Source of the DNA: a virus
Direction: 5' to 3' (one strand)
IMG/VR virus record: IMGVR_UViG_3300032180_000012
Coordinates: 1 to 47,284 of that record
DNA: 47,284 nucleotides
The first letter of the stretch is position 1; each line of letters opens with the position of its first letter. This document shows, one piece after another, positions 912-41,033 of the stretch. The notes under the pieces are model-generated. The model had not been told where the DNA came from, made no database searches, and saw only the letters and a program-made list of their open reading frames with translations. A program made the translations under genes and the position numbers.

Positions 912-3900
912 CGGCCAACTACTCGGCGCTGCTGGCCGACCCACTGGCGACGAAGGCGTGGCTCTGCACGCTATGGCCGTACGACCCGTCGCATGTCGGC
1001 CCATCGCTTGTCGGGGACGGCGTAGCGGGCTACGGCGCGGCGACGGTCGCGGCGCCGGCCGGATCGATGTCCTGGGGCTGCTGGGTCAAGCCGCAGCGCT
1101 CAGCGACCGTTGCGAAGTACATCTGCGGCTTCGGTGGCCAAGGAGCCGCCGCAGGCCAGCGCTTCTTGCGACTCAACTCCAGCGGCACCAACCTCATCGA
1201 GGCGGTCGTTTCCAATGACGCCGGGACGCAGTTCCTGGCGACCTACGCTGGCGGCATCGTCTCGGCGGCCGCCGGAGCCTGGACCTTCGCCTTTGCCGTC
1301 TTAGACCTCGGCAACACGCCGGCATCGCTCGCGCTCTACACCCTAACCATGGCGCCCCCAATCGAGCGGATGTCGGGGTACCTCGCCGTACAGCGCAAGA
1401 CGGTTCCGGTCACCGGGACGTTCAACTCGCCGGGTAATGCGTGCAGCGTGCTGCGCGACCCAGTTGGTGCTAACCAGTACCTTGACGGCGAGGTGTCGGA
1501 CTTCCAGGTCTGGTCGGTCGCCAAGGCGCTCTCCAGAGACGGCGGCGTCGCGGTCTCATCGCTACAGCCATGGCGGTGGGCGCACGGCATCCCGGCAATC
1601 AAATCCGGCTGGGCCGCTGCTGCGGGAGCGGACACTGCCGGGCTCGCAGAGTACTGGGAACTTGACGACGGTGCACCGGCAACGACAGCAGCGAGTTCGC
1701 CAGTCATCGGTGGCGCGGCGCTCACGCTCACTGGGGTCGCCTGGAACCCCTACGGCGCGGACTGGTCGGCGATCCTGCCGTACTACTCGAGCACGCACGG
1801 CTTCAACTCGCAGCCCAGTGACAACCCGCCGAACATGGAGTACGCGGCGCGGATCACGGCGCCGCCGATGGTCAAGCGCAGCATGTATTCCGGCAACAAC
1901 ATCGGTGGCTACTCGACGCCGGATCTCGGGCAACTTGAATTCGGGAACGGTGATGCCGGCTTGGACGTGATGCGGCCGTTGGCGTTCGACGCTCGCCGAG
2001 CGCTGTTGCAGTTAGGCGGCACGCTCGGCAAAGGGACCGTCCTTGCGCTCTCGGACTACGGGACGGTCCTAGACGGCGTCGGCGCCGGTGACATCCTGTG
2101 CGACCCGCAGTTGGCGACACTCCACCTGCGGTCCAAGGACTTCACCTTCGCGAAACCGATCCAGAACTTCCCGGCGAACACCTACAGCCCGCCGTGCGTC
2201 GAGGTGGAGGTCGTCGGTGACCGAATCGTCTTCCCGACGTTTCCGGCACAGACTGGGAGCCTGACTGTCGAGGGCTGGTTCTACGTCGTCGACCTCGTGA
2301 CCGGGCAGGACCTGGTTCACATGAACGACGGCACGCATGGGTTCGCCGTCAACATCAACGTAGGTGGTAACGGCACAGTGCGCTTCGCGACGAGCGACGT
2401 GTCGAACGGTGCACTGGTGACCGCCGCCAACACCGTCGTCCTTGGCTGGAACCACATCGAGTGCGTTTACGACCACGGAGCGCAGACGAAGACGATCTCC
2501 GTCAACGCCGTGCCAGTGGCGACGGTCGGGTCCTTGACGGGCGCGCTGGTCGCGCCATCCGTAGCGCTCGGAGCGCTCGCGACTGCCGCTGGCGCGAGCG
2601 GCTGCTTGGTCGGCACGAGGATGTCCTCGCTGCGCATCTGGTCAGTCGCGCGCACCCAGGCGCAGATCCAGGACACGATGCGGAAGCGGCTCGCCGGCAA
2701 CGAGACCGGCCTCCTCGGCTCCTGGGGCTGCCGCGAGGGGCAACTCGCCTACGTCTACGACGCTACCGCCAACGGTTACACCGGCATCCTCTTCGGCCAG
2801 ACAGGCTGGGATGTGGCGGACTGGGCGGACCCCAACATCGCCGGCGCCGCCCTCCCGCTCTGCTACGGCGAGGTCGCCGAGGCGCCGGCGCTCCTGGTCG
2901 ACCCGGCGAGCCTCATCTACCAGGTGCACGATGGCAGCGTCCAACTGATCAAGGGCGTCGCCGACAAGGGCGCCTGGCTCAGGCCGCCGTTCTCCTACAC
3001 CGGGACTGATGTGTCGTTCGATGGACCGAGCGGGAAGATCACGGCCGCCGGCGCCGACTTCTCGGTCTTCGCGCCCGGCATCGTCGGCGCGCTCTCTTCC
3101 GCGGCGCCTCCCGTCATCCCGGGCGCCTCGACGCCGAACATGACGATCACCATCTCCGGCTCCTCAGCCGGCGGCAACAACGCCACCTTCCAGGTGCTCT
3201 CTGTCACCCAGGACATCCACGGCACCTCGACCGTCATCACTGTCAGCGGCCCGCTCACGACCTCGGCGGCCGGCCCCTCGGTGACGATCGTCACTGCCGC
3301 CGGGACCGCGCAGTGGACCGCCGACGCGGCGCGCGGGTACTTCACGCTGCTGCAAAACCCCGCAGGCACGATCAGCGCCTGGGTGCGCGGCGACAACGGG
3401 GGCCCAGCAGGCTACGTCAAGACCGCTGGCCAGGTCATCCGGCGCATCGTCGTCCGTCACGGGCTCCTACTTGACCCGGCAGACCTCGACACCGCGGCCT
3501 TCACCGCCATGGACGCCGCCAATGGCGCGACGGTCGGCATCGCGGTCCAGGACACGGCGAGCTCGACGCCAGACCCCTTCACCGGTTCACTGCTCGGTGC
3601 CGGCCGGGTGCTGAAGGACGTCTGCGACGAGGTCGCCAACTCAGCCGGTGCGCTCTACGGTTTCGAGCGGATCGGCAACCTCTTCCAGGTCGCGCAGTTT
3701 GTCGGTGTCCCGCCCGGGGCTGCGGCAGTGACACTCGACTACACCTCGATCGAGACGAAGCCACAGTGGACGACCGAGCTGCAGAACCTCCCGATCTACC
3801 GGGTGGCGGTCGGCTACGCGCAGAACTACAACTACAACAACAGTTCGGCGAACAACCTCTCTGGCGTCGCGCTGTCGAACCCGGCGCGCCTCGCGTTCTG

Positions 3901-4243
3901 CCTGCGCCAGTACCGCTACGCCCTCGCTCAGGACGCCCAGGTACTGACGACCTACAGCCAGGCACGGACCCTGATCGTCCTCGCGAACTACACCTTCTAC
4001 GCGGACGCCCTCGCCGAGGCCGAGCGCCTGCTCGCACTCCTCAAGGTGCGGAGTGACCTCTACAAGATCGGCGGCCACACGCTGCCCTACGCGGTGGACG
4101 TCAACCAGAAGGCGGCGGTCAGCTATAGCCTGCCGGGTGGCGCTGGACCGCGCCTCGGGACGCCGCGTAACTTTGTCATCCTGTCCTTCGACGAGCAGCA
4201 GCAGTTGGGCTCCGTCGGCCTGGGCATCTGGGGGCAGGGCTGA
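908..4243 (+). CDS. Tail tip or fibre protein with two LamG-like domains
   Basis: 1111 residues. Two concanavalin/LamG-like modules are visible: residues about 45-205 (begins SWGCWVKP, ends EVSDFQVWSVAKAL) and about 445-605 (TVEGWFYVVD to SLRIWSVARTQAQI, then the usual GLLGSWGCREG tail). The C-terminal 250 residues (from GRVLKDVCDEVANSAGALYG) resemble a tail-hub type fold with no LamG signature. LamG modules in tail proteins usually bind cell-surface glycans, so a receptor-binding or baseplate role is inferred. It sits directly after the tape-measure gene, the normal place for tail-tip proteins, and shares a TGATG junction with the next gene. Confidence 0.72.
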   Translation: MTANYSALLADPLATKAWLCTLWPYDPSHVGPSLVGDGVAGYGAATVAAPAGSMSWGCWVKPQRSATVAKYICGFGGQGAAAGQRFLRLNSSGTNLIEAVVSNDAGTQFLATYAGGIVSAAAGAWTFAFAVLDLGNTPASLALYTLTMAPPIERMSGYLAVQRKTVPVTGTFNSPGNACSVLRDPVGANQYLDGEVSDFQVWSVAKALSRDGGVAVSSLQPWRWAHGIPAIKSGWAAAAGADTAGLAEYWELDDGAPATTAASSPVIGGAALTLTGVAWNPYGADWSAILPYYSSTHGFNSQPSDNPPNMEYAARITAPPMVKRSMYSGNNIGGYSTPDLGQLEFGNGDAGLDVMRPLAFDARRALLQLGGTLGKGTVLALSDYGTVLDGVGAGDILCDPQLATLHLRSKDFTFAKPIQNFPANTYSPPCVEVEVVGDRIVFPTFPAQTGSLTVEGWFYVVDLVTGQDLVHMNDGTHGFAVNINVGGNGTVRFATSDVSNGALVTAANTVVLGWNHIECVYDHGAQTKTISVNAVPVATVGSLTGALVAPSVALGALATAAGASGCLVGTRMSSLRIWSVARTQAQIQDTMRKRLAGNETGLLGSWGCREGQLAYVYDATANGYTGILFGQTGWDVADWADPNIAGAALPLCYGEVAEAPALLVDPASLIYQVHDGSVQLIKGVADKGAWLRPPFSYTGTDVSFDGPSGKITAAGADFSVFAPGIVGALSSAAPPVIPGASTPNMTITISGSSAGGNNATFQVLSVTQDIHGTSTVITVSGPLTTSAAGPSVTIVTAAGTAQWTADAARGYFTLLQNPAGTISAWVRGDNGGPAGYVKTAGQVIRRIVVRHGLLLDPADLDTAAFTAMDAANGATVGIAVQDTASSTPDPFTGSLLGAGRVLKDVCDEVANSAGALYGFERIGNLFQVAQFVGVPPGAAAVTLDYTSIETKPQWTTELQNLPIYRVAVGYAQNYNYNNSSANNLSGVALSNPARLAFCLRQYRYALAQDAQVLTTYSQARTLIVLANYTFYADALAEAERLLALLKVRSDLYKIGGHTLPYAVDVNQKAAVSYSLPGGAGPRLGTPRNFVILSFDEQQQLGSVGLGIWGQG

Positions 4244-5607
4244 TGGCCTCGATGCTCTTCACGCTCCCGAACGCGGCGGACCTGGGGACGCTCACGGCCG
4301 GGAGCACGGCTGCGGGCTCGAACGTCACGAACCTACAGAGCCCGGAGATCACGAGCGTCTGGCGATCGGCACCTGACGTACTGCCTGGGAGCGGCCAGAC
4401 GCTGGCGGCAGGAGGCGGCGCCGGCCCGCTCGTCTACCCGGCCTCGCGGTGGTTGCAGTACAAGCCGGCGGCGGCGCTCTCCTACGACCACGCGATCGCT
4501 GTCGCCGCGCTCATCAACGATTCAGCGCGCCCGTACGCCGGCTCTGGCGTAACGCGGAAGTGGCGAGCGCGGATCTACGCCAGCGCCGGGAACCAGTTGA
4601 GTGGCATCGTGCGACCGGCTCCGAGTGGACCGACGCTTACCAACCTGACCGGCGCCACGTCACCAGGCGGCGTCTGGCAGCCGGCGACCTCCTGGCTGAC
4701 GGCGACATCGCCGACGGCGAACACGGTCGCCGTCATGTCGTTCTCTTCGGCAGCAACCGACGGGGGCGCTCTGCCGCTCAAGGCCGGCGCCGGGTTGCAG
4801 ACGTTCTCGATCCTCTGCCGCCGGAGCGGTTCCGGCGGCACCAACCCGACGCTCTCAATCGACCTCTACGAGTCCGGGCTGTTGGTGGCGAACCTCGCGT
4901 CCGGGATCGCCCTCGTCGGCACGACGCCGGTCGTCGTCAGCGTCCAGTGGAACGCGTCGCTCCTTGCCTCGTTGAGCAGCACGACGGCCGGGCTCAGGGT
5001 CACCGGGACGGCGGGCAGTTCGCAGACCGTGGAGTTCGCGGCCTTCGAGTGGCTGGCCGAGCACAACGGCTACCTCTACGACTCCGGTGACCAGGCCGTC
5101 TCCTACCCGGTGACCGTCGCGCAGCAGGCGGCCAGGGTATTCAACCTCCCGGTCGCGCTCCCGACGCCGATTCCCTCGGGTTCGCCCTACGTGCTCGTCG
5201 ACCAGATGTCCACCGCCGACGCCTACGCGCAGCAGGGGCGGATGGTCGTCGCCAACGCCATCCAGCCGTTCGTCAACATGGACTACAATTGGGGGATCTC
5301 CTGGGCCGACATGTCGCCGGTCAGCGAGACGCCGGGAGGACAGGAGTGGTTCGAGGTGCGGCCGAAGCGGCGGATCGGCGAGTTGGTCTGCAACGCGCTC
5401 AGGACAGCCGAGGCGTGGGACCAGATCTTCTCGCAGCTCCAGGGGAGTGTCGGGATCAGCGGCAACTTCCTCTGGATGCCGGACCCGGCGACGCCGAGCG
5501 AGTTCTACAACAACGTGATCTGGGGGCGCTTCGACGGGCTGTCGCCAGTCAAGAACCCGCGGTTCGCTCGCTACAGCCAGAGCTACAAGATCAAGGAGGT
5601 CCTGTGA
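4243..5607 (+). CDS. Minor tail protein
   Basis: 454 residues, starting one base before the end of the previous stop (TGATG at 4241-4245). The N-terminus reads SMLFTLPNAADLGTLTAGS, then NLQSPEITSVWRSAP, the kind of opening seen in phage tail proteins downstream of the tape measure. No catalytic motif is seen; the sequence is rich in S, T, A and G and looks beta-rich and structural. Its place (tape measure, LamG tail protein, this gene, then lysis-type genes) supports a distal tail or adhesin role. Function is inferred from position. Confidence 0.65.
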   Translation: MASMLFTLPNAADLGTLTAGSTAAGSNVTNLQSPEITSVWRSAPDVLPGSGQTLAAGGGAGPLVYPASRWLQYKPAAALSYDHAIAVAALINDSARPYAGSGVTRKWRARIYASAGNQLSGIVRPAPSGPTLTNLTGATSPGGVWQPATSWLTATSPTANTVAVMSFSSAATDGGALPLKAGAGLQTFSILCRRSGSGGTNPTLSIDLYESGLLVANLASGIALVGTTPVVVSVQWNASLLASLSSTTAGLRVTGTAGSSQTVEFAAFEWLAEHNGYLYDSGDQAVSYPVTVAQQAARVFNLPVALPTPIPSGSPYVLVDQMSTADAYAQQGRMVVANAIQPFVNMDYNWGISWADMSPVSETPGGQEWFEVRPKRRIGELVCNALRTAEAWDQIFSQLQGSVGISGNFLWMPDPATPSEFYNNVIWGRFDGLSPVKNPRFARYSQSYKIKEVL

Positions 5608-26389: not shown

Positions 26390-26553
26390 TGGCGCTCCTC
26401 TCCCTCCTTCGTGGGCTTGATGCCGAGGCCCCATGTGGCGGTCTGTCGGCGGATGGCAGCCTCCTCCCGCGCGATCTCGGCCTGGCGCTCCTCTTGGTCG
26501 AGGGGGAGGAAGCGCTGCGGCTTGCGGCGGCGCGGCGTGCGCTCAGGGGGCAC
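26386..26553 (-). CDS. Small charged protein
   Basis: 55 residues. GTG 26553 lies inside the end of the methyltransferase gene, nine bases after GAGGAG; the stop overlaps ATG 26389. Begins VPPERTPRRRKPQRFLPL and continues as a charged helix (EERQAEIAREEAAIRRQ). Function unknown. Confidence 0.45.
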   Translation of the reverse strand: MPPERTPRRRKPQRFLPLDQEERQAEIAREEAAIRRQTATWGLGIKPTKEGEERQ

Positions 26554-28735
26554 TGAGCAGCACTCCTCTAGCGAACGGCTGCACCCATACCGGCGTCGAG
26601 CCGAGCGCCCACGTCTCGCCAGCTCGCGACAGCAGGATGGCGATGCCGGCGGCCCTGAGAGTTTCACTCATTGCCGGCGGTGGGATCGCGTTGCCGACGA
26701 CCTCGGAGACGCCGCTGACAGTCATGCCCTTGACGGCTGCGGTGAACTCTTCGATCGACTCAGGATCGACCAGCCCTTGCAAGGCAGCCCGCTCAAGCAC
26801 CGACATGGGCCGGTGCCAGGTTCCGTCCAGCGCCTGGATGGTCCAGACGCCGCGGTCGTCGAGCGTGGGGAGCACCAGCTCCGGCAGTTCGGTCGGCGAC
26901 CGCGGATCGGCCACTGCAGCCGCTCCACTTCCCGGCCGGTCCGATCCGGTAACCGTGCGCCCAGGTTCGTCCCAGGAAGCGACACGCATCTTGCTCGTCG
27001 ACGCGCCGGCATGCCAGTCAAGCCGCGGGTCCTGGACGGCGATACCGCCGCTGCATGGGCTCTGGCCGGCCGTGACCGCGACCGATGGCGATCGCCAAGC
27101 GATGAGGCGATAGACGTTGTTGTGCCGGATCCCCTCCAGCCGCGGATCGGCCACGACGCCGGCGCCACTCCCCGGCGTGCGGCTTCCGGTCACCGTCCCC
27201 GCGGGCCGGTCCCAGGGCATCACGCGATGGACGTTGCCGTGGGTGCCTTCACCGAAGCCGGTGCGCGGGTCTGCCACCGACCAGCGGCCGTTGTCGTGCT
27301 GCGCGGCCGCGGTGACCGCGCCGGCCGTCTCCTCCCATCCGAGCACGCCGTAGTGGCCGGCTCGCTCGAAGTCGCCACCCTTCTCGGGACAGCCTGGGTG
27401 GCGCGGATCGGCGATCGCGTGCCGGCCGCCGGTCGGGGAGCCTTCCGCTGTCACCGTGTCGGCGTGCGCGTTCCAGCCGGCGACCCCGAGCATGCCCTTG
27501 TAGAGCGGGTGCGGGCAGCGCGGATCGGCCACCGAGATGGGTCCCTGCCCGGGCGAGCTCTGGCCGGTGACTGTCCCGGCCGGCCGGTCCCACTTCTGGA
27601 CGCCGAGCTGCTGGTAGGAGCCGGTGTAGGGTGCCCGCGGGTCGGCCACGGCATGCGCTCCCGACGTCGGGCCGCCGTTTGTGGTCACCGCGGCGCCGTG
27701 CTCCTCCCAGGATCTGATGCCGAGGGCGCCATGGTTCCAGTCGTCGCCCACTCGCGGGTCCGCGACGGCATGGGCGCCGTTCGTCGTTCCGCCGCGGCCG
27801 GTAATCGTCGACGCTGGGCCGTCCCACTCGTTGACGCCGAGGACGCCCGGGTGCCAGTAGGTGCCCGGCTCGAGCCGGTAGTCCCGCAGTACTCCGTCTT
27901 CCACCACCAGTTTGTTCAGGTCCCGCCAATCGCCGCCGGCCGGGATGAGCGCCAGTCGCACCCACGTGCGCCACTCCAACCGCGGCAGCCGGTGCAGGAA
28001 CCCGCCGGCGGGATGTCCTGGCAAGGGCAGCGGCCCCAGCACCTCGCCCACGGCACGCAGCGGGCGTTTTGGCGGCTCGAAGATGCAGACCGGCACCTTC
28101 TCCCGGTGACGTGCCACCAGGTGCAGGCGCTTGCGGGACTGCGCCAGGTTCCCGATCTCCCCGAGATCCGGGATGGTGTAGGTGACCACGTAGCCGGCTG
28201 CTTCGAGCATGCCGACGATGGCGCCGAGGAGCGCCGCGCCGCGACTCACTAGGCGCGGGACGTTCTCGAGGAGCCAAAAGCTTGGTGGATCATCGGCCCA
28301 TGCCTCGATCGCCAGGCCGATGCCGCGGAGGGCGAGAGCGTTCAGCGCTTGATACTTCGGTGACCGTGACCGCTCCTCGGTGACTAATCCTGACCAACCC
28401 TTGCACGGCGGGCTCGACACAATGATGTCGGGGGTCTCGCCGCCGGAGGAACGCTGCAGGTCTTCCGCCGTCGCCTCGCGCCAGTCCGTCGGCGGTGGAT
28501 GACCGTGGAAGGCGACGTACTGCTCGCGAGAGAACAGGTCGACGCATGTCCCCTCAACGCCGACGTAGCGGTTGAAGGCCCGCACAACCTCTGGCACTAC
28601 ATCGATGCCGCCGACGCAACGGAACCGTGCGCGCAGTTCCTGGCCGCCAGCCGTCGCTTGGACCTCGACATGCTCGCCGCCCTTCGCGGCGCCACCGAGA
28701 CCGTGGAAGAGGTGATAATGCGTCAGTTCCTGCAT
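26543..28735 (-). CDS. DNA cytosine-5 methyltransferase with eight-repeat target region
   Basis: 730 residues, ATG 28735 with GGAGGG upstream. Motifs in C5 order: motif I-like HGLGG near 11, PC of SPPCKGWSG (Cys111 is the nucleophile), ENVP at 157-160, AQSRKR (motif VIII), then, after a long insert, SVLERAALQGL (motif IX) and EVVGNAIPPPAMSE (motif X). It should transfer methyl from SAM to C5 of cytosine. Between VIII and IX, residues about 290-610 are eight units of 36-46 residues, each ending in V(A/Q)DPR or IADPR. The unit looks like copies of the segment before motif IX. Probable role: protection from host restriction. Confidence 0.88.
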   Translation of the reverse strand: MQELTHYHLFHGLGGAAKGGEHVEVQATAGGQELRARFRCVGGIDVVPEVVRAFNRYVGVEGTCVDLFSREQYVAFHGHPPPTDWREATAEDLQRSSGGETPDIIVSSPPCKGWSGLVTEERSRSPKYQALNALALRGIGLAIEAWADDPPSFWLLENVPRLVSRGAALLGAIVGMLEAAGYVVTYTIPDLGEIGNLAQSRKRLHLVARHREKVPVCIFEPPKRPLRAVGEVLGPLPLPGHPAGGFLHRLPRLEWRTWVRLALIPAGGDWRDLNKLVVEDGVLRDYRLEPGTYWHPGVLGVNEWDGPASTITGRGGTTNGAHAVADPRVGDDWNHGALGIRSWEEHGAAVTTNGGPTSGAHAVADPRAPYTGSYQQLGVQKWDRPAGTVTGQSSPGQGPISVADPRCPHPLYKGMLGVAGWNAHADTVTAEGSPTGGRHAIADPRHPGCPEKGGDFERAGHYGVLGWEETAGAVTAAAQHDNGRWSVADPRTGFGEGTHGNVHRVMPWDRPAGTVTGSRTPGSGAGVVADPRLEGIRHNNVYRLIAWRSPSVAVTAGQSPCSGGIAVQDPRLDWHAGASTSKMRVASWDEPGRTVTGSDRPGSGAAAVADPRSPTELPELVLPTLDDRGVWTIQALDGTWHRPMSVLERAALQGLVDPESIEEFTAAVKGMTVSGVSEVVGNAIPPPAMSETLRAAGIAILLSRAGETWALGSTPVWVQPFARGVLLSAP

Positions 28736-28768: not shown

Positions 28769-29122
28769 TCATCTCGCTTTCCTATCGGGTTCTGCGTCCT
28801 CCGGCTCACCCAGCGCCCGCTCGATCGAGCCGCGAAGCTCGCCGGCCCGCAACATGAGCTTCTTCACCGGCTTGCCGATAGCCCAGGCGTGGTCCAGCTG
28901 CCGCAGGTAGTCGGACAAGAGCTCGAGCAGCGGGCGCACATCGCCGATCGGGACCGGCGGCCGCACCGGCTTTGCGCGCGGCGGGGCCGGCATCGGCTTC
29001 AGCGCTGGCGGCATTGCGCCCTCGGGAGTCGGGGGACGGATGAGCTTGCCTTGGCGCCGCAGCAGTTCAGGCGCCTCGCGGATCAGATCCTCGAACGCAG
29101 CTTCGATCCCTGCGTCGGTCAT
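28769..29122 (-). CDS. Small Pro-rich helical protein
   Basis: 117 residues, ATG 29122 with GGAGGGGG upstream and ATGA overlap with the ATPase stop. Two helical ends (AAFEDLIREAPELLRRQ; LLELLSDYLRQLDHAWAI) are joined by a Pro-rich linker. It may be an adaptor for the preceding HerA-like ATPase or the following methyltransferase; only the coupling suggests this. Confidence 0.5.
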   Translation of the reverse strand: MTDAGIEAAFEDLIREAPELLRRQGKLIRPPTPEGAMPPALKPMPAPPRAKPVRPPVPIGDVRPLLELLSDYLRQLDHAWAIGKPVKKLMLRAGELRGSIERALGEPEDAEPDRKAR

Positions 29123-30906
29123 GAGGTCGCCCCCTCCTCCGGGCTGACATCCCGCTCTTCGCGCGTGCATCCAAAGAGTTCCTCGCTCGCCCGCAACTCG
29201 CCTCGGCCGCCGGTGACCAACTCGAGGGTACGCAGCCGCGATAGGTAGGTTGAGAACGTACCACCATCGCTTGAGATCTGCGCCCGCTCGCCCACCTCGG
29301 TACTGGAAAGCCCGGCGGGATAGATCGCGGCGAGCACGCGGAGAATCCGCGCAGCACCGCTTTGTCCCAACTGTGCGAGCCAGTAATCGAGAAGTGCATG
29401 GCCGCTCGGCAGCGGCTCGAAGGCGCCTAAGGCTTCGCGGCCGGCGTCGGTGATAAAACGGCGGTCCCCCTGGTCATTGATCCAGCCCTGCGTGCGAGCC
29501 CGCGACAGGTAGGTCGAGAAGGTGCCACTCTTGCTCGAGATGCCGGCGCGCACGCCTATCTGCCGGTTCGTCAAGCCTTGGCGCTGCGCGAGCGCGATCA
29601 GGATGCGGCGCAGACCGCTTTTGCCGATGCTACCGGCGCCGTCGCCTGCTGCCTGCCGCGTCGTTGCGGTGCGAACGGGTGGTGCCTGCCGCGCTCGGGC
29701 GGCGCGGGCCGGCGATGGCGCCGCGCTGAGTCGGCGCGCGGCTTCGATGCTGGCGATGGCCCGATCGAGAGTCCCGAGGATCTCGCCGGCGCGCCTGTCG
29801 GCTAACTCGGCGGCTGCGCGGAGGTCGGCGGCCGTCTGGCGCAGGTCCGCCGTAGCGTCCGCGTGGAGAACCTGGACCTCGACGACGCGGGGAGGGACTG
29901 CCGCTGCTGGCGTCGCGGTCCTCTGCTCCGCCGCCTTCACCGCCAGTTCGAGGTCAGCGATACGCCGGCGGAGCTCTTTAGGGTCCTCGGCCTTCGCGCG
30001 TTCCACGGTCGCCTTGATCTCGGCGCCGAGCTTGTTGAGGTCGATCGCGGCCCGCTCCTTCGGTTGCAGGACCGCCTTGTTCGGTAGCGGCGTCGAGGAG
30101 CTGTCGAACGTTTCACGCCGCCGGATGGAGACGCGCTGCAGGACGCCCATCCAGGCCGGCGACCAGAACCAAGCGTCACCGATCGGCAGAGTCGGCAGGC
30201 TGTCGATCACGCGCTTGGCTTCGGCCGGCTCGGAATGAACATCCACCCATGTGCCGATGGCCCCAATGTCGAGCGGGTGAACCATCTTCAGGACAAAGAG
30301 CGATTCGCACTGCGTCAGGACCGACTTGTGGAGAACCGCCGGTCGCTGCGAAATGAGCGTGCAGCCGATACCGCGCTTGCGACCGCGCCGGACCAGGTCC
30401 TCCATGGCGCCCAGGAGCGGCGCTTCGCTGCCGCGCTTACCGCCGCCGCGCCTTTCTTGCGGAGCGAACGCATCGGCCTCGTCAACGAAGAGATGCACCG
30501 GCTCTCGGTTGAGCCGGTAGAGCGTCTCGCAGAACGCGGTGGCGAAACGTACGGCCTCGGCCTTACGGAAGATCGACAGGTCGATGACGGCCGGGAACCG
30601 ATGGGCGACCAGGGCGCCGGCGATCACCTCGCCGGCGGACTCCTCGAGCTTGACATCGGCATGCTCTCCGCCGAAGACGACGACCGGGAAGCCGACGCTC
30701 TTGCCGTCCGCCGATGACCGCAGGCCGTACCAGCCGCCGGTCGGGTCTAAAACCACGATCTGCTGCCGGGCCTTAAGCATCTCCTCAGCCATGACAGAGG
30801 CGAGGTAGGACTTGCCGGAGCCGCGCTTGGCGAGAACGGCGAAGGTCTGGACGACCGCCTCGATCGGCAGCACCAGGTCCGGCGCCATGTGGAGCTTCGC
30901 GGTCAT
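29119..30906 (-). CDS. HerA/VirB4-like ATPase with coiled coil and two winged helices
   Basis: 595 residues, ATG 30906, AGGAGG upstream. N-terminal DUF87/HerA-type ATPase: Walker A AKRGSGKSYLAS near residues 26-37, Walker B VHLFVDEADAF near 141-151, and an arginine-rich RRGRKRGIG then TLISQRP (sensor-like) after it. A coiled coil (about 285-400) follows, then two copies of a winged-helix unit, both with SGTFSTYLSR or GGTFSTYLSR (about 440-500 and 525-580). It likely pumps or remodels DNA as a hexamer, with the C-terminal repeats binding DNA. HerA usually works with NurA; no NurA is seen nearby. Confidence 0.82.
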   Translation of the reverse strand: MTAKLHMAPDLVLPIEAVVQTFAVLAKRGSGKSYLASVMAEEMLKARQQIVVLDPTGGWYGLRSSADGKSVGFPVVVFGGEHADVKLEESAGEVIAGALVAHRFPAVIDLSIFRKAEAVRFATAFCETLYRLNREPVHLFVDEADAFAPQERRGGGKRGSEAPLLGAMEDLVRRGRKRGIGCTLISQRPAVLHKSVLTQCESLFVLKMVHPLDIGAIGTWVDVHSEPAEAKRVIDSLPTLPIGDAWFWSPAWMGVLQRVSIRRRETFDSSSTPLPNKAVLQPKERAAIDLNKLGAEIKATVERAKAEDPKELRRRIADLELAVKAAEQRTATPAAAVPPRVVEVQVLHADATADLRQTAADLRAAAELADRRAGEILGTLDRAIASIEAARRLSAAPSPARAARARQAPPVRTATTRQAAGDGAGSIGKSGLRRILIALAQRQGLTNRQIGVRAGISSKSGTFSTYLSRARTQGWINDQGDRRFITDAGREALGAFEPLPSGHALLDYWLAQLGQSGAARILRVLAAIYPAGLSSTEVGERAQISSDGGTFSTYLSRLRTLELVTGGRGELRASEELFGCTREERDVSPEEGATS

Positions 30907-30955
30907 AGGGTAAAGTTCCTCCTTTGCCCCTTTTCGAGGCGATCAATGGGCGCCC

Positions 30956-31204
30956 TCACCATTCGGCGACTGTCGGCGTCGTCCAGCGGGTCGTCTCTCG
31001 GCGGCCGATCAGCAGCTCCGGCGGAGCGTCGCAGGCCAAGTCGGCGCCGTGGTATTCCATCGCCGCCGCGACGCTGCGGCGGTCACTGTCCTCAAGGAAG
31101 TGCGGTGCCCAATCCAGATTGAGCCGGCGCTCCATCTCGAGATGTGGCGAGAGCGCGGCCCTGGCGAGCGTTGGGGTCAGAATCGTGCGGCTTTTCTTGA
31201 ACAT
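30956..31204 (-). CDS. Small protein, unknown function
   Basis: 82 residues. ATG 31204 (five bases after GGAG) is preferred to ATG 31207. Begins MFKKSRTILTPTLARAAL, with a middle helix and a Trp-containing acidic part. No known motif. It lies between the ATPase gene and the first pentanucleotide array, and its RBS sits at the edge of that array. Confidence 0.5.
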   Translation of the reverse strand: MFKKSRTILTPTLARAALSPHLEMERRLNLDWAPHFLEDSDRRSVAAAMEYHGADLACDAPPELLIGRRETTRWTTPTVAEW

Positions 31205-31224
31205 CATTGCTCCTTTCATGCGCC

Positions 31225-31640
31225 CCGCGAGAGGCGCTAACGTGCCTGGCAGCCTCGCGCCGCCACGCCATGCCGTTGCTGCCACGCCGTACCGCGCCTC
31301 GCCATGCCTCGCCTAGCCTGGCCATTCGGTGCCAAGCCGCTCCTGCCAAGCAAATCCTTGCCTTCCCCTGCCCTGCCAAGCAATGCCCGGCCGGATCGAG
31401 CCTCGCCATGCCGAGTCTGCCAAGCCAATCCGTGCCCCACCAGGACTTGCCTCGCCCGGCCAATCCCATCCACGCCGAGACTGCCGAACCCTGCCCGACC
31501 ATGCCCGACCATGACCTGCGCCGCTGAACCCAGGCGAGATGAGCCCTGCCATGGCTGCCATGCCCCTCGCCGCCACGCCTCGCAGTGCCACTACCCGACA
31601 AGCCGCGCCCAGGCCCGGACCGCGCCAATGGCCGCCCAGC
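31225..31640. repeat. Degenerate pentanucleotide array 1 (NNGCC)
   Basis: About 415 bases in which GCC recurs at 5-base steps: TCGCC ATGCC TCGCC TAGCC and so on, with gaps mostly of 10 or 15 bases and rare 9-base slips. All six frames are open here because the unit cannot make most stops, so frames in it are not genes. No single gene product is supported. Array 2 (32165-32535) has the same unit and period on the other side of the gene at 31642. Confidence 0.7.
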
Positions 31641-31641
31641 C

Positions 31642-32139
31642 CTAGACGTGCGCTTCCTGTGGGTGTGCCTCCTCCTCCGACTCCTCGATTGCCTGCATGA
31701 CCGGGCCGAAGAGATGGCGGTACTCAGAATAGCGAGCTTTCCACGAGGCCAACTCCGCTCGCGCTCGCTTCAGGATCTGCGCCTGGAGTTCCGCGGAATC
31801 CATGACCTCGCTGAGCGGCGAGTAGCGGCGCTCGTCGCCGACCTCGATCAAGTGAAATGCCTGCGTCTCGCGCTCTTCGCCGTCGTCCACGAAGATCACG
31901 TTGACGGAGCGGATCAGGTGCCGCGCCTGCTCCTCGCGGTAAAGCTCCGCCGCCCGCACGTCGTCCCACTCGAAGAACGGATGCAGGCGCGCCTCCTCGG
32001 GCCGCGCCGCCTCCACCACGCTTTGAGCCGTGATCGCCGGCAGCGTTTCCAACTCCTCGCCTACGACCTGCGCCTGCTCAGCCGAGAGGCGCGCACCTTC
32101 CCGCGGCCGATACTCCTTGACCTGCCTTCTTCTCGTCAT
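31642..32139 (-). CDS. Conserved-looking phage protein between two arrays
   Basis: 165 residues. ATG 32139 has AAAGGAG upstream; in-frame codons further up lie in the repeat array and are not used. Acidic and helical; includes FHLIEVGDERRYSPLSE and a long C-terminal helix (ELQAQILKRARAELASWKAR). No enzyme motif. Unusual in being flanked on both sides by 400-base pentanucleotide arrays. Confidence 0.6.
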   Translation of the reverse strand: MTRRRQVKEYRPREGARLSAEQAQVVGEELETLPAITAQSVVEAARPEEARLHPFFEWDDVRAAELYREEQARHLIRSVNVIFVDDGEERETQAFHLIEVGDERRYSPLSEVMDSAELQAQILKRARAELASWKARYSEYRHLFGPVMQAIEESEEEAHPQEAHV

Positions 32140-32164
32140 TCTGACAGCTCCTTTCGGTTGAACG

Positions 32165-32535
32165 ATTGAACCACGCCTGCCTCGCCAAGCCATCGGGTGC
32201 CCTGCCGCGACTAGCCCAGCACTGCCGGTCCCGGACCGGCCACGCCCATGACCACGCCGCGTCTGCCACGCCATCGCCGTGCCGCTTCGAGACCAAGCCA
32301 CGCCTCCGCGAAGCCACTCCCCGCACGGACAGGCCACGCCCTTGCTGCCCGGCCCCGCCTAGCCATGCCGCGCCCGGACCCGCCATGCTGCGCCAGTCCG
32401 CAACGCGCCTCGCCATTCCTGCCGCGACCCGCCCAACCGGTCACTGCCCTGCGCAGCCGCGCTCAGCCCTGCCTTGCCGCGACTGCCGCGCCGCGCCACG
32501 CCTCGCCAACCCGTGCCCCGCCTAGCCGATCCCCG
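32165..32535. repeat. Degenerate pentanucleotide array 2 (NNGCC)
   Basis: About 370 bases with the same 5-bp step as array 1 (ACGCC, TCGCC, AAGCC, CTGCC, TAGCC units). It fills the whole space between the gene at 32139 and the one ending at 32538. As in array 1, all frames are open by composition and are not called as genes. Confidence 0.7.
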
Positions 32536-32537
32536 CC

Positions 32538-33167
32538 TCACCCGGCCTGGACGCTAAACCTGCCGTAACTGCCGTCCCTCTGCGGCCTCCATTCGCCGAC
32601 GCCGATGCTGAACCCGGCGACATTGTAAAGGTTAATGATTTGCTCTGGCGAAATGACGGCGGCATTGTACTGAACCCTCAGCGTCGCCTTCCAGCCGGAG
32701 AACTCGGCTCTGTAGCGCAGGTCGCGGGTCCCCATCGCGATGGTCACCGTGTCGCAGCGCTGCGCGAGCCTCTTGTATTCGAGCTGCACGAGACCGCCGG
32801 TCTCCTCTTGAATGTGGAAGGCGCCGCGGGCGAGAACCTTGGTCAGGCCGCTGATGAAGGAACACGCGTCAACCGCCGAGTTCTTGAAGGCACTCGCCGG
32901 GAAACCGTAGATGGCTCCCTCCGCGCCGGCCTCATGGCCTGGCATAGGATACAGCGACGCCAGAAAGTCGGCCTCCGGGTCGCGGGGCGCCTTGGCGGTC
33001 TTGGCCTTCTTCTGCTGCTTGTCCTCGATCTGGCGGCGAGCCTTGTCGCCGAACCGATGGACGATCAGCGGCGAGGTGCCCACCAACGGCACCAGCATCG
33101 TGCGAACATCGATCGCGAGGAGCGCGACTGGCTGCGGTGCTGCCGGTGCTGCGTTTGCTCTTGCCAT
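32538..33167 (-). CDS. Conserved phage protein of unknown function
   Basis: 209 residues, ATG 33167 with AGGAG upstream. Contains TSPLIVHRFGDKARRQIEDK, then YGFPASAFKNSAVDACSFI, and a closing block YNVAGFSIGVGEWRPQRDGS. I recall this arrangement from many phages, usually next to helicase or recombination genes, with no assigned function. A second good RBS (AGGAGGG) precedes ATG 33246 in another frame, which would give only a short basic leader (begins MANPKTSRKHMAAGQSW); I do not call that gene. Confidence 0.65.
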   Translation of the reverse strand: MARANAAPAAPQPVALLAIDVRTMLVPLVGTSPLIVHRFGDKARRQIEDKQQKKAKTAKAPRDPEADFLASLYPMPGHEAGAEGAIYGFPASAFKNSAVDACSFISGLTKVLARGAFHIQEETGGLVQLEYKRLAQRCDTVTIAMGTRDLRYRAEFSGWKATLRVQYNAAVISPEQIINLYNVAGFSIGVGEWRPQRDGSYGRFSVQAG

Positions 33168-33322
33168 GGCTCTGCTCTCCTGCGGCGCGGCGCACCCAGG
33201 ACTGTCCTGCCGCCATGTGTTTTCTGCTAGTCTTCGGATTAGCCATCGCACCCTCCTGGGGGTTCGCTGGTCAGGGCGCCTCGTGGGGTCTCAGCCCTCG
33301 GGGCGCTTCGTCCTTCTCGGAC

Positions 33323-33359: not shown

Positions 33360-36300
33360 CTAGACACTCCGTGAGAGGCGTCGGTAGATCGCTTCACCGA
33401 GCTGCAAGGCCATTTCGATGGCGGCGCGTTCGCTACCCTCGCTGCCGAATGACTCAAGCGCCCCCTGGACGCTGAGCCCGTCGACCTGAAGGCTGCTGGT
33501 CACCTTTCGCGAGATCAGCCTCAGTGCGATCTCTTGCGCCGTGCCGCTGAAGAACGCGAAATCGATATCAATGTCGCGCACCGTTCCGATTCTGTGAAGT
33601 CGGCCGTTCGCTTGACGGTAAGTTCGCGCGTCGTAATCGGTGTCGTACCATATCCCAGCGCTGAATGACACAAGGTTGTTGAGCCCGGTGCTGATCGCCT
33701 TCGGATTCACGATCATCACCTCAATGCCCTTGGCGAGAATGTGGTCGTTGATCCACTGCTCCCGTTTCCGCGCCAGGACCCGATCCGCAGCCAGGAACGC
33801 CGCCCGCGGCGTGACCTCGGCCTTGATGAGCCGCAGCAGCCGGAGCGGCAGCGCAGACTGCGTGTGCCGCAGGAACACGAGCACCTTTCGGCCCTCCGTC
33901 AAGCGCTCCCGTAGTCGATCTAGCAGCCATCGCTCCTTCGGCGTCCGCCAGCTCGCCGGGAAGGCCATGCCCTCGGCCACGATCATGCCGCCGACATCCT
34001 CGGGGTACTTGAGGACGAAGCGCTCCTGGTCGTCGGTGCAGCGGTCAAGGTAGGAGGGCAGCTCGCCCATCGCTCCCCAGAGCTTGCCGGCTAGCTTGGT
34101 GAACATGTCGCCGCGGACGCGCTCGAGCATCTTCTCCTCAAGGCGACGGTACTCGGCGAGCAGAGCAGCATCGTTACCGCCTTCCTCGCACGGCACCGCG
34201 ATCGACCGCTCGTGCATGGGCGGGATCTCGCTCTCGAGGTCGGACTGGTGCATGACGATGCCGGCCGGCAGGAGGTGACGCAGCAGAAACAGCGGCAGGA
34301 TGCCAGGAACCTCGCCGAGAGGCTTGAGTCCGTTCGTCTCTCGATCACTCTGCGAGCCGTAGGACCGACCGTTGTTGGACTTCTTCTCGTCGTAGCTCTC
34401 GAAGAACTTGAGGAAGCCGTAGCGGCGGACGAAGGCAGCGCGGTCGCTGCGGTCGTAGCTCTCACGGAAGGCGCGATCGAGTGACCACCAGTTGGCGAAG
34501 AGGCTGGACGCGTAGCCGCCCATGATCGAACCGGAGAGCATCAGCGTCGGAAGGCCGAGCTCGACCAGGCGGTGTGCGGCCTTCTCCTGGGCCGTCCCCT
34601 GATTCCCTGCCTCGTGAGCTTCATCAAGCACTAATAGATCAAACATCCGCGGCAGCCGCCGGCAGATGTAGGTGGCGAGCGGGAAGCGCCGCGGCTCCGG
34701 GACCGCCTGCCAGAGCGGCTCGTTGCAGGCGCCGGTCTTGAGATCGGTGCGGCGAGCGCGGCTGAATCGGTAACTGACCTCGCCATCGCGCCAGGCGGCG
34801 AGTTCGTGGAGGAGCGAGAGCGCATTGACCAGGTTCAAGGTGCGATCCGGGTAGTCATCGCCTCGCGTCAGGTCCATGGCTAGCGATCGCCTTGCCTGAA
34901 GGAGATGCGCCCACCCGTATTCCGAGCGCTGCTTGCCCGGCGACACGGTGGCGAGCATCTCGTCGATCAAGGCGATGAAAGCACTCTCCATGGCGAGGCC
35001 GCGGCCGAGTTCAACGAAGGCGCCGATGGGCTTGCTGTACTGCTGCCAGTCCGCCATCGTGCACTGGTGCGGCAGGAGCGCACCGAGACGCAGCGCGATG
35101 GCCAGGAAGCCCTCGCCGTTGATCCCGGCGGCCGGCGGTCGTTCCGCTCGTTCATGGAGGATGCGATGCCTGCGGCTCAGGGCGCCGGCCAGTTCCTCGT
35201 TGGGGCGCACGGCGAGGACATGTGCGGCCAGGTCCTCCGCCATCTCGGCCCAGACGTTCGCCGGCAGGCGCGGGACCGCCTGGCAGCGGAGGCGCCTGCT
35301 GACGCATTCCTCGGCCGACTCCTCGAAGGGGGCACCGCAACGCGGACAGTGACCGCCAGCGACGCCGCGGTAGCCATGGCCGAGCTTCGCCGTCTCCCGG
35401 CTCAGCAGGTAGATCTGCGCGTCCATGCAACGGAGATCCGCGATGTCCGTCACCACCTTGACCCAGGCCGAGGGCCAGACCGCGCGGGCCTCAGTCTCCC
35501 AGGTCATCAGGAGGTGCGGCGGGCAGATGACGAGGGTGCGGCGGACCTTCGGTGGCCGGCGAGTGAAGCCGACGCGCCGCAGTTCCCGGCAGGTGTCTTC
35601 GTGGTGACGCGGATTGAGGGCCGCTGCGATGTAGAGCGCAACGCCAGTCTTGCCGGTACCGACTTGCGATACCATTTTCGGATTGCGATCGCTGGCCAGC
35701 AGCTTGAGCGACGCCTGGACCGCGTGGTGCTGGCAAGTGAACAGCGGCCGGCCGAGGTCGGGCAGCCGGATCTGCTGCTCCCGGTCAGGGGGATCATGGA
35801 GCGAGGGGAACTGCTTTGCCATCAGTTCTGCCAGCGAGCCGCTGTAGCGAATGAGCAGGTCGGCGACATTGCACTGCTCCACGTCCTCCGAGCCGGTGGG
35901 CTCGGCGCCGGTAGGCGGCCGGAAGAACTCGTAGGTGTCCAGCCGCAGCGCACACATCTCAAGCCGCGGCTGCTGCACCAGAATGCGGCCAGTCACCTCG
36001 CCGTCCTTGTTGACCTTCTCTTCGACCTCGATCAGCTCGCGAGTGAACATGCCCTTGAGCAGGATAGGCGGAAAGCCGTCGTCGTCCGGCCACAGCTCGT
36101 GGCCGTTGAAGTGGCCGGCGGCAAGGGCTAGGGCGAGGTGCGCCGGCTTCGGCGGCAGGGCCGTCGGAAAGGACCGCCCGATCAGGTCCTGGACCTCAAG
36201 ATCCGTACCGAGCGCGGGGACGCCGGCCCACGGCTTGAACTCAGCCCGAGCGCCCTGGTAGTCGAAGGCGGCGACACGGGGCGAGAAGCCGTAGTCGCGC

Positions 36301-36986
36301 TGCTCGACCAGGAGCGGCTCCTCGCAGACCGGCGGCAGCGGCGGGAGCGCTGCGGAGTCGCGCCCCCAATCCCGGATGCGCTCCGCGGTGCGGCTCCCCG
36401 GGAGCGGCATCGCGGCGCGCCGCGCGAGGAGCACGCACTGCCGGTAGGCATCGAAGTGCTCGCCTGGGAAGCGCCACGCCCGGTGATTGGTGAAGAGGCG
36501 CCCCAGGGTCTGCGCACTGGCGACCAAGCCAGCGCCAGGGACGATGTAGATCAGCACGCCACCCGGCGCCAGCGTCGGCCCGAACCGCGCCAGGAACCGC
36601 TCCTCAAGGCGGCCGTGGCGGCGATCGCTGTCGTAGGGCGGATTGAGGAAGAGGAGTGAGCAGCCTTCCTCGCCCTTCGGCCAGGTCAACGAGAAGGCAT
36701 CGGCGTGGACCGTCCAGTCAGTACGCGTGGCGCTCTTTGAGAGGAGCGCCGCCCTCTCCTCCTCCATCTCTGTCGCCAGGATGTGTGCTGCCTTCGCGCC
36801 GGCTTCTGGCCACCAGAGCTTGCGGAGCGCCAGGATCGCTTCCCCCTCGCCAGCGCAGGGATCGAACAGGAGGAAGCGCTGCGACTTCCCCTTCGGTGGC
36901 GGGAAGGATACTGCGGAGGCGATCGTCGGCAGGAGCACCGTCGGCGTCGGATAATAGCCGGCGATCGCGCGCGCACCGGGTCTCAT
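33360..36986 (-). CDS. Adenine-type methyltransferase fused to SNF2-like helicase
   Basis: 1208 residues. N-terminal SAM-dependent methyltransferase (about 1-220) of DUF6094 type: GYYPTPTVLLP, FDPCAGEGEA (SAM loop, 41-50), FLNPPYDS (NPPY, 115-118). A superfamily 2 helicase follows: Walker A QVGTGKTGVAL near 437-447, Cys4-like HCPRCGAPF near 547, DEAH box VLDEAHEAGNQGT near 785-797, and motif VI QANGRLHRIGT near 1122-1132. It should methylate adenine and translocate on DNA. Such fusions recall phage DarB and type ISP enzymes, here without a nuclease domain, so antirestriction or self-protection is likely. Start overlaps the previous stop (ATGA). Confidence 0.85.
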   Translation of the reverse strand: MRPGARAIAGYYPTPTVLLPTIASAVSFPPPKGKSQRFLLFDPCAGEGEAILALRKLWWPEAGAKAAHILATEMEEERAALLSKSATRTDWTVHADAFSLTWPKGEEGCSLLFLNPPYDSDRRHGRLEERFLARFGPTLAPGGVLIYIVPGAGLVASAQTLGRLFTNHRAWRFPGEHFDAYRQCVLLARRAAMPLPGSRTAERIRDWGRDSAALPPLPPVCEEPLLVEQRDYGFSPRVAAFDYQGARAEFKPWAGVPALGTDLEVQDLIGRSFPTALPPKPAHLALALAAGHFNGHELWPDDDGFPPILLKGMFTRELIEVEEKVNKDGEVTGRILVQQPRLEMCALRLDTYEFFRPPTGAEPTGSEDVEQCNVADLLIRYSGSLAELMAKQFPSLHDPPDREQQIRLPDLGRPLFTCQHHAVQASLKLLASDRNPKMVSQVGTGKTGVALYIAAALNPRHHEDTCRELRRVGFTRRPPKVRRTLVICPPHLLMTWETEARAVWPSAWVKVVTDIADLRCMDAQIYLLSRETAKLGHGYRGVAGGHCPRCGAPFEESAEECVSRRLRCQAVPRLPANVWAEMAEDLAAHVLAVRPNEELAGALSRRHRILHERAERPPAAGINGEGFLAIALRLGALLPHQCTMADWQQYSKPIGAFVELGRGLAMESAFIALIDEMLATVSPGKQRSEYGWAHLLQARRSLAMDLTRGDDYPDRTLNLVNALSLLHELAAWRDGEVSYRFSRARRTDLKTGACNEPLWQAVPEPRRFPLATYICRRLPRMFDLLVLDEAHEAGNQGTAQEKAAHRLVELGLPTLMLSGSIMGGYASSLFANWWSLDRAFRESYDRSDRAAFVRRYGFLKFFESYDEKKSNNGRSYGSQSDRETNGLKPLGEVPGILPLFLLRHLLPAGIVMHQSDLESEIPPMHERSIAVPCEEGGNDAALLAEYRRLEEKMLERVRGDMFTKLAGKLWGAMGELPSYLDRCTDDQERFVLKYPEDVGGMIVAEGMAFPASWRTPKERWLLDRLRERLTEGRKVLVFLRHTQSALPLRLLRLIKAEVTPRAAFLAADRVLARKREQWINDHILAKGIEVMIVNPKAISTGLNNLVSFSAGIWYDTDYDARTYRQANGRLHRIGTVRDIDIDFAFFSGTAQEIALRLISRKVTSSLQVDGLSVQGALESFGSEGSERAAIEMALQLGEAIYRRLSRSV

Positions 36987-37807
36987 GGCTTCTCGGGTTC
37001 CAGGAGGTCCGCACTTTGCTCATGGACGGAGAGCGTCGGCTTTCTGGTGGCCTCATCCCAGTCGCGCTCGAAGGTGGTGGCTTCGGGAATGGCGAGCGGG
37101 AGATTGGCCTGTTCCCCCTCAGCGATCAGTCGTTGGCGCACACCGTGGACGAAGTCGGGATCTCGATCGAAGCCAACGAAGCGCCGGCCGTTGCGAATGG
37201 CAGCGATCGCGGTCGAACCGCCGCCCATGAAGGGGTCGAGCACGAGCCCTCCGCGCGGCGATACGAGCAGCACGGCGCGCTCCATCAAAGCGACCGGCTT
37301 CTCGGCAGGATGGTCTGTAAGCGTCGACGCTTTCCCTCCGCCCCAGGCGCAACGCCAGAGATCCGGTTCGGAGGCGCTTGCCGCCTCGAAGTCATTGAGT
37401 TGGAGTACCGCAAAAGTCTCGTAGCTCCGCCGTAGCACGCCGCCGAGCCCCATCCTGCACTTGTCCCACACTCCAATCGCGGGCGCGCGCCGGATGCCGA
37501 GCTTCGCTGAGGCGTGATCTAACTCAAGGCAATCGCGCCAGTCGAGCGTCATCCAAACGGCGCCATCTGGCCGCAAAACGCGCAGCCATTCCCGTAGATG
37601 CTCCCGCAGCCACGCGGCAAAGAACTGCGTCTCCTTCACCGTCCTTACCGTGCGCGAGTTGGCAATCAGCGATTCCCCGGCGATCGCGTAGGGGGGATCA
37701 GTGACGACTGCGTCGACGGAGCCGGGGGCCAGTTGAGAGACAAGCTCGAGCGCCTCACCCACATAGAGCTGGACGCCTACCTGTTCGTGATAGGGCGCGG
37801 CTTTCAT
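36983..37807 (-). CDS. Beta-class DNA methyltransferase (N4-cytosine or N6-adenine)
   Basis: 274 residues, ATG 37807 with GGAGG upstream. DPPY at 37-40 (catalytic) precedes HPAEKPVALMERAV and DPFMGGGST at 191-199 (SAM loop): this IV-then-I order is the beta class. Between them lies a small target region. DPPY occurs in both N6A and N4C enzymes, so the base is unresolved. Overlaps the methyltransferase-helicase start by four bases, so the two may act together. Confidence 0.85.
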   Translation of the reverse strand: MKAAPYHEQVGVQLYVGEALELVSQLAPGSVDAVVTDPPYAIAGESLIANSRTVRTVKETQFFAAWLREHLREWLRVLRPDGAVWMTLDWRDCLELDHASAKLGIRRAPAIGVWDKCRMGLGGVLRRSYETFAVLQLNDFEAASASEPDLWRCAWGGGKASTLTDHPAEKPVALMERAVLLVSPRGGLVLDPFMGGGSTAIAAIRNGRRFVGFDRDPDFVHGVRQRLIAEGEQANLPLAIPEATTFERDWDEATRKPTLSVHEQSADLLEPEKP

Positions 37808-39583: not shown

Positions 39584-39882
39584 CCGCCAGCCCCAGTGGT
39601 CGCAGATGGGCCGCGGTCTGGATACTGTTCGTTGTACCCGTGATCGACGACGCCCTTCGCTGACCACAGCGCGTCAATGCGCAGCAGTTCGGCCTCGTCG
39701 CCTCGGTGGCACGGGACGTGGAGATAGGCGCGCTGCTCAGGGTGGCTCTCGCCCTGGCCATCGGGCCGCGCCAGGTCGAGGCGGCCGTGATGCCAGAACT
39801 CTTCCTGCGTACTGCCGAAGACAGCGTTCGCTGGGAGGACCGGTAGGAGGAGGACGGCGCTCGTGGCGCGTGGAGGCGTCAA
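39580..39882 (-). CDS. Small protein with TTG start
   Basis: 100 residues. TTG 39882 overlaps the previous stop (TTGA) and has GGAGG seven bases upstream; GTG 39927 is an alternative. Starts TPPRATSAVLLLPVLPANAV, perhaps a weak signal, then a His-rich middle (EEFWHHGRLDLARPDGQGES; RAYLHVPCHRGDE). Function unknown. Confidence 0.5.
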   Translation of the reverse strand: MTPPRATSAVLLLPVLPANAVFGSTQEEFWHHGRLDLARPDGQGESHPEQRAYLHVPCHRGDEAELLRIDALWSAKGVVDHGYNEQYPDRGPSATTGAGG

Positions 39883-41033
39883 CGCGGTGCCTCCGGAAAC
39901 TCGCGCACCCTCAAATATTCTGGCCACTCTGACATGTCGCCGCCCTTGCGGTCCTTCAGCGCGAGCCGCCGAGGGAAGCCGCCAGCGGGAATGTCCACAA
40001 GATGATGATCACGGAGGATGGCGGCGGCGACTTCTTCGGTGAGCGGCTGATCCGTCGGCCGCTGGATGCCGCGCTCGCCCTCGACGACCTCGCAGGCGGT
40101 CAAGTAGCCATCGATCGGCTGCGCGCCGAGTTGCTTGATAAAACACGCCACTTTTGCAGCCTTACACTGTCCGATAACGCTGCGTGGCCAAGCCAGATCG
40201 AACGGCCTGGCGTGCGGTCCAGATTCGCCGCCAACTATGACCTGGTCGAGATGTGGCGCCAAATTTTCCCCGAGTGAATCATTGAGACGGTCTACTGGCC
40301 TATTTCGCCTCCCGAGGTAGGCAGTGAAGTCTACATGAGCCAGCATTGGTTCGCAAGACACAAACCTGATTGCCGCTGGCGTCCGCAGCAGCTCCGGGAT
40401 GCGCCTATCGGCGGTCTCCTGGTTCTCGCAAGAGGTACCTAGCCAGACATTGGGGAGCGGCCAGGCGTCCTTCGCGTTCGACCAAGCGCGCGTCCAGAGC
40501 TTGTCAGACAGATCATCGGGAAGAAATTCATCCGCACGGCCGAGTATCACGGTGACCTCGCGCCCGTTCGACATTGGCGCTCTCGCCACCCTTGAAACCG
40601 ACTCGATGAACTCACGCGCCCTCTCCGGTCTCTTGGTGAGCACCTGGAAGATGTGCTGCGGGCACGTCGCCATCACCCCAAAGACAGCCGCAATCTGCTC
40701 GAAGGGCAGTGCCTCGTGGAAGAGATCGGACATTGAGTTCACAAAGATCCGTCGCGGTCTCTTCCACTGCAAGGGTAGGGCAAGCATGTGGGGGATCAAC
40801 TCAACGCGGCCAGTCCAGCGCGGGCCAGCCGCCGTCATCTTGGCGAAACCGGCGAAAGGGCCGTGACCGCCACGATTGATCTCGCTATTGGCCTCGATCT
40901 CGATCAGGTCATGACCGGCGAAGCGCGCCGCTTGACGCTCTGCGTAACAGAAGCGGCACCCCTCGCTCACCCTGGTACAGCCGCGCACGCAATTCCATGT
41001 CATGTCTGTCCACTCGATGCTGGTCTTACCCAC
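39879..41033 (-). CDS. Phage Gp37/Gp68-type (DUF5131) iron-sulfur protein
   Basis: 384 residues. N-terminus KTSIEWTDMTWNCVRGCTRV then SEGCRFCYAER: Cys15, Cys19, Cys26 and Cys29, the DUF5131 cluster motif, radical-SAM-like. Further family blocks: RRIFVNSMSDLFHEALP, FQVLTKRPERA, NVWLGTSCENQ, VIVGGESGPHARP. The family is widespread in phages and likely binds an Fe-S cluster and SAM, possibly for base or protein modification; the reaction is not established. Overlaps the gene before by eight bases and the next by TTGA. Confidence 0.9.
   Translation of the reverse strand: MGKTSIEWTDMTWNCVRGCTRVSEGCRFCYAERQAARFAGHDLIEIEANSEINRGGHGPFAGFAKMTAAGPRWTGRVELIPHMLALPLQWKRPRRIFVNSMSDLFHEALPFEQIAAVFGVMATCPQHIFQVLTKRPERAREFIESVSRVARAPMSNGREVTVILGRADEFLPDDLSDKLWTRAWSNAKDAWPLPNVWLGTSCENQETADRRIPELLRTPAAIRFVSCEPMLAHVDFTAYLGRRNRPVDRLNDSLGENLAPHLDQVIVGGESGPHARPFDLAWPRSVIGQCKAAKVACFIKQLGAQPIDGYLTACEVVEGERGIQRPTDQPLTEEVAAAILRDHHLVDIPAGGFPRRLALKDRKGGDMSEWPEYLRVREFPEAPR

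Follow-up and report, generated by a model that had tools for sequence, protein, structure and literature searches.

The closest described systems are those named VIPR (Viral Interference Programmable Repeat), which the main text of a 2026 preprint presents as phage Vipr proteins of the RAMP type together with guide RNAs of alternating GGY and NN, read with a skip of one nucleotide, and a vap gene (PMC13142463). Vipr of phage SUSP1 is the founder and belongs to type II; the vrRNAs are given as 9–16 repeats each, those of the SUSP1 type carrying an invariable structured 3' tail (PMC13142463). In the same text, guide function was shown by experiment in Vipr homologues, a SUSP1 array whose NN positions were changed silences a new DNA target that matches them, and VIPR is proposed to be ancestral to the CRISPR RAMP effectors (PMC13142463). 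The initial annotation of the DNA studied here knew of no such element in phages, a statement overtaken by the publication of VIPR systems with GGY/NN arrays in April 2026 (PMC13142463).

The window, by which we mean the whole stretch of viral DNA that was analysed (47,284 nucleotides, IMG/VR record IMGVR_UViG_3300032180_000012), contains a minus-strand operon with vipr, a gene in the vap position and two guide arrays, and we put the probability that it is a VIPR locus at roughly 0.94. This reading rests on the array and its orientation rule, the fold and homology of the protein, their strict linkage, modules of guide length, and a natural target that one related array matches almost perfectly. 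The features of the locus are as follows.

31225–31640, minus strand: array 1, a putative vrRNA array, (GGYNN)n in transcript sense (lag-5 and GCC-pair statistics, repeat HMM)
31642–32139, minus strand: accessory gene in the vap position, 165 aa, phrog_15946, between the arrays, with the motif LHxxFEWDDxxAAxxYRxxQARxLIRSV
32165–32552, minus strand: array 2, a putative vrRNA array, (GGYNN)n in transcript sense (lag-5 and GCC-pair statistics, repeat HMM)
32538–33167, minus strand: vipr, 209 aa, Cas7/Csm3-like RAMP protein, phrog_4652 (AlphaFold, fold searches, profile match to SUSP1 Vipr)

No family in Pfam, in NCBIfam at threshold or in PADLOC covers the window Vipr. Its AlphaFold model (pLDDT 95.2) was searched against the PDB with Foldseek, and all 50 matches listed were RAMP-type subunits of type III or type VII complexes or Cas7-11, the best being of the Csm3 fold (E 3.9e-7). 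VIA-align of the model gave a Z of 11.6 and an rmsd of 3.5 over 156 residues, with the RAMP fold spanning residues 19–209, and the protein has a C-terminal glycine-rich loop, GVGEWRPQRDGSYGRFSV. Moreover, hhalign of the window family profile against SUSP1 Vipr returned a probability of 99.8 and an E-value of 1.8e-30 over 179 columns. By the predicted structure and the profile match, the product is taken to be a single-domain Cas7/Csm3-like RAMP protein homologous to SUSP1 Vipr; the fold searches and hhalign thus find here the small single-RRM RAMP homologue with a glycine-rich loop that is a feature of VIPR.

The arrays had been annotated as a degenerate 5-bp repeat, NNGCC, that is intergenic, out of codon phase and neither a CRISPR nor a simple tandem repeat, and we agree on each point. 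At lag 5, both arrays reach an identity of 0.48, while lags other than multiples of 5 give about 0.2–0.35. Array 1 contains 21 GCC pairs spaced exactly 5 bases apart (1000 shuffles: mean 1.1, maximum 6) and array 2 contains 22 (mean 1.5, maximum 7); the 5-bp period that autocorrelation was to check is therefore present, with GCC pairs far above the shuffles. A repeat HMM placed the arrays at 31251–31612 and 32171–32552, near the 31225–31640 and 32165–32535 first assigned, and found no other array in the window. Both are long and continuous, with about 75–80 repeats each; array 2 starts within the final codons of vipr (32538–33167), continues directly past its stop codon, and nearly reaches the ribosome-binding site of the following gene. 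Repeat searches at the locus returned only the 5-bp unit, and a CRISPR array was rejected in the absence of repeat-spacer structure. A coding repeat was also rejected, since NN = TA gives TAG stops and phase slips disrupt every frame. Elsewhere in the window, at 11301–11388, a weaker and short period-5/10 signal (GCCAATCCAG x3.4) lies inside a plus-strand gene and is probably a coding repeat.

Because the genes to either side are read from the minus strand, the unit in the transcript is GGYNN (GGCNN or GGTNN) rather than NNGCC, and intergenic GGY/NN arrays would thus flank vipr in the sense direction, as in VIPR. Related arrays were gathered by a pattern scan of viral contigs followed by the repeat HMM, and counts refer to the matches listed. 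The search for NNGCC arrays in other phages that the initial annotation had proposed shows that degenerate arrays are widespread in viral contigs. Among the matches listed, the pooled units (NNGCC sense) hold G at 87%, C at 93% and C at 94%, while NN is nearly free. The arrays beside a vipr family gene in a Felix O1-like phage with a GC content of 39% consist mostly of GGTNN, which makes the third position a pyrimidine and not strictly C. That the arrays are decayed ordinary pentanucleotide microsatellites might be considered, since GC-rich bacterial genomes often contain exact GCCNN microsatellites. However, the bacterial ones are low in entropy and nearly unoriented (19 versus 12 for exact pentamers), whereas the viral arrays combine conserved GGY with high NN diversity, take the GGTNN form in the 39% GC phage, and have NN positions without a shared ancestral unit; we regard this origin as extremely improbable.

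Orientation points the same arrays to transcription. Of the 121 degenerate viral arrays listed that have a called gene on each flank, 88 are antisense to both genes in the NNGCC sense and 6 are sense to both. Of 50 whole virus records, 49 have every array match on a single strand; in the remaining one (G041), arrays switch strand together with the local genes. As orientation follows the genes and flips in this genome, the array is read as RNA, or is at least tied to transcription. This bears on a DNA-level element with 5-bp phasing (packaging, recombination boundary, curvature or a nucleoid-protein site), for which the long low-complexity intergenic tracts and a period close to half a helical turn, the argument first made, could speak. 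The hint of helical phasing or curvature finds no support, because the arrays follow the direction of transcription and flip with the transcription unit, not with the genome; in addition, the association with a RAMP-fold gene is strict, and the arrays tolerate phase slips of 1 base, which recur at regular spacing. Such an element therefore has next to no probability in our estimate.

The linkage to vipr is seen from both directions. Among the matches listed, at least 82 of 120 array loci hold a vipr-family protein, many of the remainder being cut contigs, and in 164 of 167 array-vipr pairs the NNGCC unit is on the strand opposite the gene. When loci were chosen by the protein alone, 75 of 80 had an array on the expected strand; counted by array, 86 lay on that strand and 2 on the opposite one. 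The closest array downstream of vipr often begins 0–13 nt past its stop codon, or past a second gene of about 150 codons. The arrays had initially been tied to the gene at 31642; this 165-aa gene does lie between them and the link to an adjacent gene stands, but the key partner is the gene at 32538–33167, upstream of array 2.

In about 30 loci a gene of the phrog_15946 type follows next downstream of vipr, on the same strand every time, and the family of 31642–32139 accompanies 27 of the 32 members of the window's Vipr clade; an adjacent, same-strand gene in the vap position is accordingly present in the window. The model of its product (pLDDT 92) gave no confident match in the fold search, the resemblance to winged-helix proteins being weak (Z 5.4 or less), and the protein is dissimilar to SUSP1 vap and belongs to a different family.

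Roughly 200 related loci were collected, and together with the window locus they suggest that VIPR is a common phage system, found also in mycobacteriophages and Gordonia phages in which the genes are annotated as hypothetical. The system is present in the Cheoctovirus mycobacteriophages Saal (gp51) and Brocalys (gp45) and in the Gordonia phages ODay (gp19) and UmaThurman (gp39) (L003, L004, L265 and L266), all with such annotations. Pseudomonas phage LESphi2 (P. aeruginosa LES prophage 2; L267, 5591–5890) carries the Vipr family gene P21_9 and three short arrays with a hairpin-like tail after each. Some arrays in L008, L025 and L110 adjoin sequence resembling the 3' half of a tRNA (GGTTCGANTCC...), possibly relevant to RNA processing. 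An alphaproteobacterial MAG contig (L219) has two different vipr genes (892–1626 and 3762–4355), with an array adjoining one of them.

The phase slips in the window arrays are non-random. Of their 12 four-base units, 10 are TGCC, that is GGCA in the transcript, and four-base units in arrays are likewise mostly GGCA. The marks that bound the clean window modules are 12 or 14 pentamers apart, within the 9–16 repeats published per vrRNA, and in the protein-picked loci 82% of GGCA-to-GGCA intervals measure 8–15 repeats against a geometric expectation of 25%. The putative guide modules, all on the minus strand, are listed below.

32488–32552, minus strand: guide module 0, 13 repeats; 1-nt-skip decode [HQ]R[DE]GSYGT[FL][DE]VAA, the Vipr C-terminal motif
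32424–32483, minus strand: guide module 1, 12 repeats, flanking GGCA marks 32484–32487 and 32420–32423
32350–32419, minus strand: guide module 2, 14 repeats, flanking GGCA marks 32420–32423 and 32346–32349
31486–31555, minus strand: guide module 6, 14 repeats, flanking GGCA marks 31556–31559 and 31482–31485
31422–31481, minus strand: guide module 7, 12 repeats, flanking GGCA marks 31482–31485 and 31418–31421
31348–31417, minus strand: guide module 8, 14 repeats; reverse-strand decode resembling the S24/CI-LexA motif KIRGDSM(E)
31284–31343, minus strand: guide module 9, 12 repeats, flanking GGCA marks 31344–31347 and 31280–31283

We infer that GGCA marks delimit individual guides of about 12–14 repeats each. 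The best evidence that the mark bounds a guide comes from a related locus (L303), in which a 12-repeat module between two GGCA marks matches the vipr gene of another phage (L270) at 23 of 24 NN bases, with a 1-nt skip, in codon frame and over the whole module, while the units outside the marks show no match by eye. A base-counting estimate (615 modules, 2.05 Mb, both strands) expects about 0.0007 chance hits of this kind. The vipr gene of L303 itself agrees with the same module at 17 of 24 by hand count.

A similar case may exist in the window. With a skip of 1, module 0 matches DNA best at the 3' ends of other vipr genes, at 21 of 26, which 0 of 500 shuffles reach; other skips give at most 18 against the vipr set, and the window's own vipr gene, whose 3' end is overlapped by the first three repeats, gives 18 of 26 by hand count. 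In a search of 811,000 protein residues, the decode of module 0 matched the Vipr C-terminus best, and the module is thus a candidate guide that may be aimed at the vipr gene of a related phage. The reverse-strand decode of module 8 recalls the KIRGDSM(E) motif found in S24 (CI/LexA) repressors, which would make a plausible target at the lysogeny switch, although this is suggestive only, as some hits were picked by the same pattern. Exact-target scans of IMG/VR with modules 0, 2, 7, 8 and 9 gave no match extending over the module. In a small sample of 2.0–2.5 Mb of DNA, exact matches were not in excess at a skip of 1, and near matches showed a slight excess of good ones at the 1-nt skip over other skips.

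Taken to the clade of the window, we lean slightly towards guides carried in continuous GGCA-punctuated arrays, with GGCA as a processing or phasing boundary signal, rather than in separate tailed vrRNAs, some of the guides being aimed at the vipr of rival phages and mismatched enough to spare their own. Such punctuation is absent from the main text of the VIPR preprint, whose "staggered arrays with overlapping vrRNAs" may be the same thing (PMC13142463). As for a separate structured 3' tail, Rfam had no match in 30900–33300 and none was recognised by eye, and tails may differ between types; over 16 related loci Rfam returned nothing at the gathering threshold, hence no hammerhead.

Targets of TRAP are laid out as (G/U)AG-NN repeats of period 5. 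The GGYNN array could likewise be an autoregulatory RNA site bound by Vipr or the vap protein, having no guide function, and both this triplet-plus-two-spacer layout and the position of the arrays, flanking vipr and directly upstream of ribosome-binding sites, would fit. One array would then suffice, yet many phages hold several; NN is hypervariable and the modules are of guide-like length, the L303 guide matches the vipr of another phage, and the array-linked protein has a Cas7-like fold. With the experiments on homologues in the preprint (PMC13142463) also in favour of guides, we consider autoregulation alone very improbable, and the VIPR reading is preferred.

By analogy with the published systems, transcription of the minus-strand operon would give RNAs in which conserved GGY triplets alternate with variable NN. 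Vipr would be expected to oligomerise on this guide RNA, gripping each GGY and exposing each NN, and the NN pairs would jointly read double-stranded DNA with one base skipped between dinucleotides, usually the codon wobble position, by which genes of rival phages or prophages would be silenced. RNP formation, DNA binding and repression at the window locus are thus predicted from what the main text of the preprint reports (PMC13142463). Oriented GGYNN arrays provide a simple search handle for such systems, and GGCA offers a means of dividing long arrays into guides. Moreover, the natural match between one VIPR guide and the vipr of another phage makes inter-phage warfare by the code directly testable.

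Directly upstream of vipr, 33360–36986 (minus strand) encodes a 1208-aa protein that joins a DUF6094-type methyltransferase to a superfamily-2 helicase, and two further DNA methyltransferases are encoded at 26543–28735 and 36983–37807. The gene at 39879–41033 (minus strand) matched the PADLOC candidate defence families PDC-M41B (E 4.8e-64) and PDC-M30B, while 29119–30906 (minus strand), adjoining array 1, matches a terminase large-subunit PHROG as well as HerA/DUF87 ATPase models.

Compared with known systems, the window shares with TRAP RNA targets a triplet plus a 2-nt spacer, but its triplet is GGY instead of (G/U)AG, its arrays are far longer with guide-like modules, and the linked protein is of the Cas7 type. 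With the Cas7/Csm3 backbone subunits of class 1 CRISPR (types III and VII, Cas7-11), the window Vipr shares the RAMP fold and the glycine-rich loop, whereas the 5-nt unit with two read positions differs from the contiguous spacers of CRISPR; there is no CRISPR array, PADLOC found no cas genes among eight window proteins, and repeat searches at the locus gave no identical repeats with unique spacers. The closest likeness is to VIPR of SUSP1. The window arrays are continuous and cut by GGCA, with no tail sequence recognised like that between SUSP1 vrRNAs, and the accessory protein is of another family than SUSP1 vap; both systems, however, are phage-borne and have homologous Vipr proteins, sense-strand GGY/NN arrays flanking vipr (the SUSP1 intergenic regions beside vipr hold GGYNN tracts like those of the window), an accessory gene directly downstream, and guides of 9–16 repeats.
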